Assembly: GCF_000725545.1 (NCBI RefSeq)
Contig: NZ_JNZP01000010.1
Span: forward strand, 124,001 to 188,000
Source of the DNA: Streptomyces exfoliatus
GTDB taxonomy: Bacteria; Actinomycetota; Actinomycetes; Streptomycetales; Streptomycetaceae
Direction: 5' to 3'
Length of the DNA: 64,000 nt
The position numbers and the translations under genes were made by a program. Within the stretch, counting starts at the first letter, position 1; each line of letters begins with the position of its first letter. Shown here piece by piece: positions 45,944-49,083 of this stretch. The notes beneath the pieces are model-generated. The model was not told where the DNA came from. It was given only the letters and a program-made list of their open reading frames with translations, and searched no databases.

Positions 45944-46951
45944 TCAGTGCGCCCCCGGCCGGAAGAAGTCCAGGGCCACGCGGAGGACTTCGCGCTGCTT
46001 CGGCCAGGCGCTCTCCGGGCCCGCGGCCAGGATCGCGTAGTGGGTGCCGTCCGCGGCCGTGAAGGCCCGGTCGACGACCTTGCGGCGGCTGCCGTCGGCC
46101 CGGTCGTACGCGTAGACCAGTTCGGCGGAGTCGGCCGGGGCTCCGGCTTCGCCGGTGACCCGTTCGAGGCTGATCTCCTGGTATCCGGGCTTGTTGGCCC
46201 GGCCGTCCTCCGAGGCCCCGCGCAGGGCCTCGTACGGCGTCAGACCCGCCTCGGTGACCACGAAGACCTGGAGCAGGCTCCGGCCGTCCGGCGCGTTGTA
46301 GAAGACGCTCTGGCCGGACTCGGTGCGGTCCCAGCCCTCGGGGACGGCGACCGTGAAGCCCTTGAGGTCCTCGACGGCGCGGTAGCCGGGCGGCGGTACG
46401 TCGTCCGTGGGAGGGGTGGTCCCGTCGGACGGCGACGGCGACTCGGAGGTGGGATCGGACCCGGTGGGGTCACCGGATCCGGTCCCGGTGGGGTCGGTGC
46501 TCTCCGGCGGGGCCGGTACGGAGGCCGACGAGCCGCCGGCCGCCGGGGGCTTCTCGTCGCCCTCCCCGCGCCAGAGCAGCCAGCCGCCGGCGGAGCCCGC
46601 CACGAGGACGGCCGCGGCGACCCCTGCCGCGACGACGGTCCGCGACCGCGTCCGGGCCTCCGGAGCAGGCGCTCCGGGTACGGGAGTCCGCCGGCCACCC
46701 GCCTCGGGCACGTACACGGGGACGTGCGCGGGCGGGTGCAGGGGCGGGTGTGCGGGGGCGTCCGTGGAGACGTACTCCGGTATCGCCCGCCCCGGCGCCT
46801 CGTCCGGTGCGTACTCCGGCGGGGGCGGTGGCGGGGGTACGACGGGCCCGCCACCGGCTCCCCCCACGGGACCGGACACCGTGCCGCCGCTCTCCCAGCT
46901 CTGCGTCTCGTCGTTCCAGCGGGCCCCGCCGCCTCCCCCGTATCCGCTCAT
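45944..46951 (-). CDS. Single-pass membrane protein, third gene of the RHIM-like operon
   Basis: A 335-residue protein. N-terminal Gly/Pro-rich cytoplasmic part (MSGYGGGGGARWNDETQSWE), one membrane helix at about 105-127 (VVAAGVAAAVLVAGSAGGWLLW), a Ser/Thr/Pro/Asp linker to about 185, and an outer domain (LKGFTVAVPEGWDRTESGQ) that resembles the PsbP/LpqN-like domains found outside actinobacterial kinases. It starts one base after the 130-residue gene ends, so it belongs to the same operon. Possible sensor or anchor; function unknown. Confidence 0.75.
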   Translation of the reverse strand: MSGYGGGGGARWNDETQSWESGGTVSGPVGGAGGGPVVPPPPPPPEYAPDEAPGRAIPEYVSTDAPAHPPLHPPAHVPVYVPEAGGRRTPVPGAPAPEARTRSRTVVAAGVAAAVLVAGSAGGWLLWRGEGDEKPPAAGGSSASVPAPPESTDPTGTGSGDPTGSDPTSESPSPSDGTTPPTDDVPPPGYRAVEDLKGFTVAVPEGWDRTESGQSVFYNAPDGRSLLQVFVVTEAGLTPYEALRGASEDGRANKPGYQEISLERVTGEAGAPADSAELVYAYDRADGSRRKVVDRAFTAADGTHYAILAAGPESAWPKQREVLRVALDFFRPGAH

Positions 46952-46952
46952 C

Positions 46953-47345
46953 TCACCCTCCGAGCAGGCTGCCGACGGCCTGCCCGACGGCCACCCCGGA
47001 GGCGAGGATCCCGGTCACCGCGCCCGCGTCGGTGAGGGCCCTGCGCAGCCGGGCCAGTCGCGTCCCGTCGGCCCGTCCCGTGCCCTCGATCTCGTCCTCG
47101 GCGTCGGAGAGTTCGGCGTCCAGGGCGGTCGTCTGCTCGGAGGGGACGACACCGCCGAGGTCGGCGCGGAGCCGGCGGATGGCCTGGAGCAGCTCCTCCT
47201 GGCGCGGGTCGCGGGCCGGCTGCGTGCCGTTCACCGTGTGGGTGACGGTGTTGTGGTCGCCGATGGTGACGCTGCCCCCGGTGTTGGTGACGTGGATGCC
47301 GCCAGGAGCGCGGTCGTCAGGGGTGCGGTTCCCGGTCTCAGCCAC
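46953..47345 (-). CDS. Small RHIM-like motif protein with C-terminal glycine zipper
   Basis: A 130-residue protein with no family I can name. Residues 26-34 read VTIGDHNTV, fitting the amyloid core pattern V/I-x-V/I-G-x-x-N-x-V/M of RHIM motifs. Residues 48-104 are charged and helical (LLQAIRRLRADL, LDAELSDAEDEI). Residues 106-130 form a hydrophobic tail with Gly at 117, 121, 125 and 129, a glycine zipper able to insert in membranes. GTG 47345 overlaps the upstream membrane gene by 8 nt. The same motif ends that protein. A membrane-active effector switched by motif-to-motif templating is my inference. Confidence 0.7.
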   Translation of the reverse strand: MAETGNRTPDDRAPGGIHVTNTGGSVTIGDHNTVTHTVNGTQPARDPRQEELLQAIRRLRADLGGVVPSEQTTALDAELSDAEDEIEGTGRADGTRLARLRRALTDAGAVTGILASGVAVGQAVGSLLGG

Positions 47346-47427
47346 GGATTCCTCCGGTCGTGTCGGTGGTGAAGGTCTTGTTGGTGACGGTGTTGTGGTT
47401 GCCGATGGTCACGTTGCCCTTGGTGTT
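47241..47427. repeat. Diverged 45-bp direct repeat encoding the shared motif
   Basis: 47241-47285 and 47383-47427 match at about 40 of 45 positions; the first 17 bases are identical. They encode the VTIG-x-HNTV motif at the start of the 130-residue protein and the end of the 581-residue protein, a repeat across a gene boundary. Confidence 0.8.
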
Positions 47428-49083
47428 CTCGATGAACGTGGCGCCCTCGGCGACGTGCACGATCCTCTGCTCGAACTCGGCGGTCTCGTAACCGGCTTCG
47501 CGCAGCGCGACCGTCACGCCGTTGGCGACCCGGTCCTGCACGCTCTTGAGGTAGCGGCTGGCGTCCATCTCCTGGAAGAGCGAGGCCTCGTCGTCGGAGC
47601 CCAGCTCGCGGACGGAGACCGCGGGTCCCTCGGGCAGCGCGTTGGTGTGGCCCCCGGTGAGCAGCCGCCAGCCGTGGCCGATCGAGCGGCCGAGCGTGAC
47701 CAGGGCCTGGCCCGCGGAGCGCGGGGTCTGGCCCAGCGCCCAGACGGCCTTGCCGAAGTGGTGGTTGTGCCGGTAGCGGTGGGCGTACCGGTCGGCGTAC
47801 CGGTAGAGCGGCTTCACCGGCCGGAGCACGTGCGGTGCCACTTCCAGCATCAGCATCCCGCCCTGCGTGTGGACGCGGACGAAGACGGTGGTGACGACCT
47901 CCTCGCCCCAGCCGCCGACCCTGATGCGCAGGAAGTGCCTGCGGGTCTCGCCGCCCTCCTCGATGGAGCCGGAGCGGTGCGCCTCGAAGCCCTCGGGGCT
48001 GTACGGGGCGGCTTCGCGGGCCGGGAGTCCGTCGACCGGAAGGAAGACGACCTCGTCGATCTCCAGCTCGCGCAGCCGGTCCCGTACGGCGGCCCGGGCC
48101 TGCGGGGAGCCGTGCGGCGAGGGCACGCGCAGTGCCTCCACGAGCGGGACGACGTGCCGCATGATGGCGCTGTTGTCGAGCGGTTCGGGCGCCTTGCCGT
48201 CCAGGTTCTTGCGGGGCCGCAGTTCGACGGAGAGCGACCAGGGCTCGTAGGGCTCGCCGGCGCCGCGGAACGGGTCGTCGGCGCCGTACATGATGAGCCG
48301 GGCGTGCTGTTCGACCCGGATCCGGTCGCGCAGTCGCCGGGAGCGGACGCCCTGGGCCTGCTCGGCCGGGTCGGACTGCTGGTCGGGGAAGCGCTCCCGG
48401 GACAGCTCCTGCGTGAGCGCGCGGGCGAACTGGCCCTGCTGGGTGGCCACCGCCCAGGCCACGAGCAGCGGCACGGCGATGGTGATCCACACCTCCAGCG
48501 GCCCGATGCCCCACATCCCCTGGGAGGCGAGGCCGACCGCGAAGCCGAGGAACTCGCTCGCCTCGAAGAGGTCGCCGAGGAGCCCTCCGGCGGAGTCGTC
48601 GTCGCCGACGGCGAGGAAGAAGAGGAGCAGGACGGCCTGGAGGAGCATGATCCGGCCGTACCAGCGCAGGATGAAGGCGGGGACGCGGCGGTAGACGGGG
48701 GCGGCAGCGGACCGGCCGCGGACCCAGCGGGCCAGGGCAAGGACCAGGAACGGCGCGATCAGAAGGGCGATCATGCCCTTGGTGAGCGGGAGCGCGACGA
48801 TCCAGAGGGCCAGGATCCCGAGGGCCCAGCCGAGTTCGACGCGGCGGGCGCGCAGCGCGTGGGCGAGGACGCGGCTCGCGTCGAAGCCGAGCGAGGGGGC
48901 GGCGAAACGCTCCTCGTGGACGTACAGCTGGTCGATGACGGCGTCACGGAATCCGTCGTCGAGGTACGTGCCGGCGCAGAGCAGCCGGGTCGCCTCGCTG
49001 GAGGCGGGTAACCGGCGCGGGTCGACGGCCGACGGCGCGTGGGGCGGCCGGCCGGGCTGTTGCGGTACGGACGACTGTGTCAA
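47338..49083 (-). CDS. Multi-pass membrane protein with C-terminal RHIM-like motif
   Basis: A 581-residue protein, first of a three-gene operon. Residues 1-80 are soluble; membrane helices lie at about 84-100, 103-120, 143-160 and 196-213, possibly one more near 178-190. A large cytoplasmic region (about 220-545) has a charged helical part and a beta-rich part (FLRIRVGGWGEEVVTTVFVRVHTQGG). Residues 558-566 are VTIGNHNTV, fitting the RHIM-type amyloid core and nearly identical to the motif of the next protein. ATG 49083 is preceded by a GGGGGAGCC site. I know no annotated function; a membrane receptor for the small protein is proposed. Confidence 0.7.
   Translation of the reverse strand: MTQSSVPQQPGRPPHAPSAVDPRRLPASSEATRLLCAGTYLDDGFRDAVIDQLYVHEERFAAPSLGFDASRVLAHALRARRVELGWALGILALWIVALPLTKGMIALLIAPFLVLALARWVRGRSAAAPVYRRVPAFILRWYGRIMLLQAVLLLFFLAVGDDDSAGGLLGDLFEASEFLGFAVGLASQGMWGIGPLEVWITIAVPLLVAWAVATQQGQFARALTQELSRERFPDQQSDPAEQAQGVRSRRLRDRIRVEQHARLIMYGADDPFRGAGEPYEPWSLSVELRPRKNLDGKAPEPLDNSAIMRHVVPLVEALRVPSPHGSPQARAAVRDRLRELEIDEVVFLPVDGLPAREAAPYSPEGFEAHRSGSIEEGGETRRHFLRIRVGGWGEEVVTTVFVRVHTQGGMLMLEVAPHVLRPVKPLYRYADRYAHRYRHNHHFGKAVWALGQTPRSAGQALVTLGRSIGHGWRLLTGGHTNALPEGPAVSVRELGSDDEASLFQEMDASRYLKSVQDRVANGVTVALREAGYETAEFEQRIVHVAEGATFIENTKGNVTIGNHNTVTNKTFTTDTTGGIRG

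Follow-up and report, generated by a model that had tools for sequence, protein, structure and literature searches.

A Streptomyces operon in which a predicted membrane protein and a small helical protein carry matched, co-varying terminal motifs: a candidate NLR-free, amyloid-signalling-like module

The window analysed here is a stretch of 64,000 nucleotides from Streptomyces exfoliatus (assembly GCF_000725545.1, contig NZ_JNZP01000010.1, positions 124,001 to 188,000 of the forward strand), and the subject is a run of three genes in it, A, B and C, that overlap or abut on the minus strand (Table 1). The reading frames of A, which specifies a membrane protein, and B, which specifies a small helical protein, share 8 nt, and GGAGGA at 47355-47350 precedes the GTG start of B. 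A first-pass annotation made from the letters of the window had pointed to VTIGNHNTV close to the end of A and to VTIGDHNTV close to the start of B, and to the fit of both to the core of the RHIM motif. Their positions were verified. The pattern [VI]x[VI]GxxNx[VM] has just two matches in 56 selected open reading frames (ORFs) of the window (18,992 amino acids), both of them in this adjacent pair, while the chance expectation is 0.043 per window (residue shuffles; maximum 1 in 300). A wider form, [VI]x[VIL]GxxNx[VIM], is kept in 117 of the 120 A homologues and 102 of the 120 B homologues listed (the best 120 of 1104 and the best 120 of 194, respectively), and the named homologues among these matches are from Streptomyces. 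The B exceptions are mostly like GAFAIGDHNTV, in which the first hydrophobic residue has become Phe.

Table 1. Genes and predicted features of the A-B-C operon, in coordinates of the window
Feature	Coordinates	Strand	Remarks
Gene A, membrane protein	47338..49083	-	581 amino acids, TTG start
Gene B	46953..47345	-	130 amino acids, GTG start
Gene C, third of the operon	45944..46951	-	335 amino acids, one transmembrane segment
A residues 69-226, four predicted transmembrane helices	48406..48879	-	structure model and hydrophobicity
A residues 240-475, predicted alpha/beta domain	47659..48366	-	structure model
A motif VTIGNHNTV, residues 558-566	47386..47412	-	inside disordered C-tail 537-581
B motif VTIGDHNTV, residues 26-34	47244..47270	-	inside disordered N-tail
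B residues 47-129, predicted four-helix domain	46959..47207	-	structure model
C signature WNDETQSWE, residues 12-20	46892..46918	-	sequence

The four transmembrane (TM) helices predicted for A are modelled at residues 69-100, 106-122, 130-159 and 195-226, and the charges flanking them suggest that both ends of the protein are inside the cell; with that topology the alpha/beta domain that follows in the model would be cytosolic. No NCBIfam or PADLOC family matches A at an expectation value (E) of 1, its sole Pfam match (PKK, E 0.19) is at chance level, and a Foldseek search of the PDB with the whole model returned nothing at E 0.001. The A motif falls within a C-terminal tail, and the B motif within an N-terminal tail (residues 4-41 have a predicted local distance difference test, or pLDDT, score below 50); both tails are disordered in the structure models, and neither motif is inside a globular domain.

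The rest of B is predicted to form four helices, the last of which, residues 114-129, is hydrophobic and rich in small residues. A glycine zipper had been proposed for this end of the protein. As a description of the B protein of the window it stands, Gly 117, 121, 125 and 129 all being present, but as a conserved feature it does not, for in 57 aligned B homologues only position 129 is mostly Gly (96%, with 54% at 117 and 33% at each of 121 and 125). Gly, Ala and Ser combined reach 96, 86, 63 and 98% at the four positions, and a small-residue helix is the description kept instead. B gave weak matches to DUF5955 (PF19380; E 0.011, 16.5 bits, below the 27.1-bit cut-off) and to PADLOC PDC-M14B (E 0.005), and its model found nothing in the PDB with Foldseek at E 0.001. 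The third protein, C, had been called single-pass, and one hydrophobic segment, residues 105-123, is indeed all that exceeds the threshold used; it has weak matches to TIGR03931 (E 5e-5, below its cut-off) and PsbP. In profile searches none of A, B and C reached a curated cut-off of Pfam or NCBIfam, and a Pfam scan of these three genes at E 1 gave no NLR (NB-ARC/NACHT) domain. Neither a prior description of the A-B-C operon nor a mention of DUF5955 was recognised in the literature searched, which was mostly without subscription papers, and these absences are weak.

The feature of most importance is that the motif sequence diverges between lineages while the matching of A with B is conserved. 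The survey was of 110 A loci (L031-L140, the window being L031; L001-L030 were left out as B-centred repeats), 30 of them from 150 Streptomycetaceae genomes and the others the best 80 of 243 from named genome contigs. The gene behind A is B in 108. One of the two loci without B, L046, ends close behind A and the B match of that genome is on another contig; the other, L048, has an A tail that shows no motif. The 108 pairs reduce to 105 distinct ones, and by inspection none of these has the motif in one partner only. The A/B forms vary with the genome: GNVTIGNHNTV/GSVTIGDHNTV (the window), GAVGIGDHNTI/GAFAIGDHNTV, GSTFAVGSHAS/HSTFAIGSHAH, GNGIAIGKDSK/GNGIAVGAGAS, SGGAVAVGSGS/TGGAVAAGRES, GSNNNVAAG/GSNNNVAAG, DSAVNFG/GSAVNFG, DSAFSVGG/GSAFSIGG and GAFAFG/GAFAFG. 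Even the Asn of RHIM is lost in related lineages with the A/B pair still matched.

The score of an A tail with the head of its own B has a mean of 71.6 (39 to 98) in the 105 distinct pairs, against 42.2 for swapped pairs, and the maximum in 5000 permutations of the pairing was 47.2. Residue-shuffled heads gave a mean of 26.1 and a maximum of 55, which 94 of the 105 own pairs exceed; the weakest own pairs are L093 (39) and L085 (43). The advantage of the own head is zero above 95% A identity and 30 to 37 score units below 70%, and such growth with operon distance is as co-divergence predicts. When the motifs are sorted into classes (patterns defined after viewing the sequences), 102 of the 103 pairs that could be classified have A and B in one class, the discordant pair being L093; the heads of the window and of L061 are unclassified because the class pattern missed GSVTIG. 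This is the co-variation across homologous operons for which a survey had been proposed in the first-pass annotation. On a tree of the A core, from which the tail had been removed, there are 13 class changes for A, 12 for B and 13 for the joint state. Independent-pairs tests had too few pairs for significance in any class, with B differing the same way as A in 4, and showing no difference in 1, of the 5 pairs for class GAxxIG. In 102 of the 105 pairs the coil between the putative strands has the same length in A as in B (the exceptions are L085, L093 and L124), and in the STFA class a one-residue insertion is common to both partners. Equal coil length is what stacking in register would demand.

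Matching extends well beyond the close relatives. In a distant set of 20 regions, whose aligned A homologues are 21-36% identical to A, the best downstream ORF scores at least 58 against the end of A in 18 (L141 and L152 are below 58), each such score being the best among several ORFs and 58 being the 99% point of a composition-shuffle null with a maximum of 92. Against that null 109 of 134 loci pass, 118 of the 134 score at least 55, and L048, L165 and L174 show no match. Many distant pairs carry non-RHIM motifs, for instance GNQAVGQGASA/GNQAVGFQAQA, and elsewhere NVSGSGHSNISYNNN is present in both partners. Most distant partners are, by eye, small B-like helical proteins. The helical domain of the window B is only a weak match to DUF5955; the partner in L145 exceeds the cut-off of that family (46.7 bits). 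In 5 of the 20 regions (L142, L148, L153, L155 and L160) the partner is the motif and then a CAP12-type TIR domain. Each of the three TIR partners tested singly (L148, L153 and L160; E 1e-25 or better) exceeds the cut-off for CAP12-PCTIR_TIR (PF10137), the family of CAP12/Pycsar TIR effectors, as do the remaining two in a family-wide PF10137 search (as L188 and L190). Among 20 PF10137 loci in the 150 family genomes, 8 are preceded by an A-like gene, and in these the A-like tail is, by eye, a match. The partner in the window is instead a four-helix protein; PF10137 is not in its B, and none was found in the window's genome. A further matched partner, in L144 (2963-3412, minus strand), seemingly is made up of a pair of motif-like repeats, no other domain being recognised by eye, and it is possibly an adaptor or amplifier.

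A-like genes are rare beyond Streptomycetaceae: 13 of 296 genomes of the phylum have one, 4 of them outside the family (one marginal), and outside the family L167 and L168 have a matching partner. A clade of A paralogues that end in DxYxA lacks the motif, and none of 9 members has a neighbour that matches. The second A-like protein of the window's genome, L176 (G000:C15:151687-152730), is of this clade and has neither motif nor matched partner. Motif and matched partner come and go together among the DxYxA paralogues, L048 and the DUF5955 loci. These last were tried as further members and set aside, as the best 30 loci, drawn from matches in 86 genomes, are without an A-like gene within about 1.5 kb, and no motif head was seen by eye in the DUF5955 proteins of 7 of the 30. 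Some weaker DUF5955 matches are A partners, such as that in G025 (the partner in L145). DUF5955 exceeds its cut-off in 83 of the 150 Streptomycetaceae genomes, and the window's genome carries a DUF5955 gene (L224; G000:C27:23060-23317).

The motif match, the co-evolution at protein level, the location of the motifs in tails of the models, the conservation of the operon and the swap of partner, all computed here, argue that A-B-C is probably a receptor-effector signalling module which is NLR-free, membrane-anchored and amyloid-signalling-like. Signalling of an amyloid type fits the flexible ends, the short shared motif, the receptor-like and effector-like proteins and the overlapping genes; the stacking or amyloid, the direction of signalling and the outcome are inferred. 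A would probably be a sensor or signal hub, perhaps together with C, whose C-terminal domain would sit outside the membrane. The C-tail of A and the N-tail of B would each present a matching beta-arch or solenoid-like motif and, on activation or clustering of A, the tails may stack and template B heads in register, in a manner likened to the amyloid signalling of HET-s, RHIM and the bacterial amyloid signalosome (BASS) motifs. Stacked heads would gather the four-helix domains, each ending in a hydrophobic helix rich in small residues, at the membrane, and there B as an effector would, speculatively, most likely perturb the membrane or kill the hypha. In sister operons the place of B is taken by a CAP12-type TIR protein, with which an A-like protein pairs through a matching motif of its own. 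A membrane receptor templating a small effector had been envisaged from the start: the part of that proposal now supported is a motif that a membrane protein shares with its small helical partner and that co-evolves at protein level, and the idea of B as effector gains from the TIR partners of the sister operons.

Several observations weigh against this reading. There is no beta structure at either motif in the models of A and B, and VIA-align of the B model yields generic four-helix bundles only. Eleven of the 105 own pairs do not score above the best shuffled head, and the own head is unbeaten for only 24 of the 105 tails, since close relatives tie or score slightly better. On the tree the co-indel of the STFA class amounts to essentially a single event. 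Own-pair codon identity is 0.67 where 0.59 is expected from codon usage (z 6.9). Both A-like loci of G332 (L165 and L174), which is outside the family, are without a matched partner. An mdh homologue is upstream of 67 of 72 loci, a context that resembles a core locus more closely than it does a defence island. The tails resemble the one BASS3 peptide compared only weakly (shuffle p of 0.017 with A and 0.079 with B), and neither gave a reported match to PF12721, the Pfam RHIM profile, at a limit of E 10, though HMMER filters drop most weak matches; as a control, the published BASS3 peptide gave E 0.0013 and 18.7 bits with this profile, itself below the cut-off of 20. Membership of RHIM as a family, which the core pattern had suggested, is given up on this account and because related operons have other cores, STFAxG, GGAVAxG, GNGIAxG and more, the core changing between lineages though the pairs stay matched.

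The ten motif families BASS1-10 of bacterial amyloid signalosomes were reportedly set out by Dyrka et al. in 2020. As described in PMC7889193, such signalosomes consist of an NLR with the motif at its N-end and a BELL or other effector with the motif at its C-end, and BASS1-10 are described from NLR and BELL pairs. The present operon is like these in having a short shared motif near the ends of the products of adjacent or overlapping genes, TIR domains among the partners and occurrence mainly in filamentous bacteria (PMC7889193); the predicted helices of B, the last of them hydrophobic, may be a counterpart of the small alpha-helical BASS partner with its hydrophobic helix. There is also a likeness of the window core, V-T-I-G-[DN]-H-N, to the RHIM/PP/BASS3 motif family, in which the published Frankia BASS3 peptide has VQVGDGN (PMC8086366). 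The operon differs from the BASS systems in that a predicted four-TM protein, and not an NLR, stands on the receptor-like side, in that the motif sits at the opposite ends (the C-end in A and the N-end in B), and in that the motif varies widely inside one operon family. The operon is classed as a variant of amyloid-signalling-like systems by its probable way of working, and not as a RHIM or BASS member.

The main rival is a static tether, in which a short hetero-oligomeric beta stack would keep B (or a TIR protein) permanently bound to A within an envelope or housekeeping complex, without templated polymerisation, switch or cell death. The same co-evolution data fit it, and the upstream mdh homologue favours it, as do a C-like W-N-x-E-T-x-x-W signature downstream of B in 64 of 69 operons (by a stricter homology test C is present in 46 of 68) and the fact that, of the 41 genomes with a B match, 40 have just one. 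A tether is nevertheless judged unlikely, as conflict signalling is a better fit to the patchy presence of B (41 of 150 Streptomycetaceae genomes, five of these by head-region matches alone), to the turnover of motif classes, to the alternative TIR partners and to the finding of protein A on 2 Streptomyces plasmids (72,556 plasmid records searched; it was not found among 50,697 phage records). Quite improbable is a role for B as inhibitor of A or as immunity protein, its binding via the motif keeping A silent, though the bacteriocin immunity proteins 2ip6, 2zrr and 2bl8 are among the many four-helix bundles listed for the B model, and the overlap of the A and B frames, suggesting coupled translation, would suit it. 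Homogenisation of close DNA repeats by gene conversion, without functional matching, is a real rival because the two motifs are just 115 bp apart in the DNA of the window, and the codon excess noted above favours it, but it was rejected as barely credible: in a comparison restricted to like protein similarity (score at least 65), identical codons at shared residues are no more frequent in 72 own pairs (0.682) than in 1261 foreign pairs (0.690), and with no pair-specific DNA identity protein-level selection is the better explanation.

Within the reading of A-B-C as a signalling module, a more far-reaching proposal can be put tentatively: NLR-free membrane receptors of streptomycetes may switch on exchangeable effectors by templating a lineage-private beta-solenoid motif that serves as a recodable address. 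If so, a membrane-active four-helix protein and a TIR enzyme would be exchangeable as effectors, the pairs of each lineage would be in register and mutually orthogonal, and bacterial signalling amyloids would range far beyond the ten BASS families in diversity and would not be bound to NLRs. The question of NLR-independent signalling amyloids in bacteria is raised in PMC7889193, and this operon family is a concrete candidate for one, some of its partners having a domain known from immune effectors. The motif classes, which number about a dozen in close homologues, with further classes in distant homologues, would offer a natural test of specificity in stacked beta motifs, with no cross-talk predicted between different classes and with the motif-less paralogues as controls. 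Function could also be assigned to several unannotated streptomycete protein families.

A tentative S. coelicolor locus, SCO4829, was dropped, as it is a putative oxidoreductase in PMC3765725. Both plasmid copies of A-B-C show an A/B motif match by eye. One of them, L238 (NZ_CP054921.1, 5058-8044), is a complete module with two IS5 transposase genes nearby upstream, and in its A and B alike the coil is, by eye, shorter by one residue. Lastly, the B proteins of seven loci of the GGA motif class (L049, L050, L051, L053, L057, L058 and L059) have two motif copies before the helical domain, exemplified by GGISIGRMSGGAAASG and GGISVGTMSGGAVAAG in L050, an arrangement which resembles the two repeats of fungal HET-s (PMC7889193).

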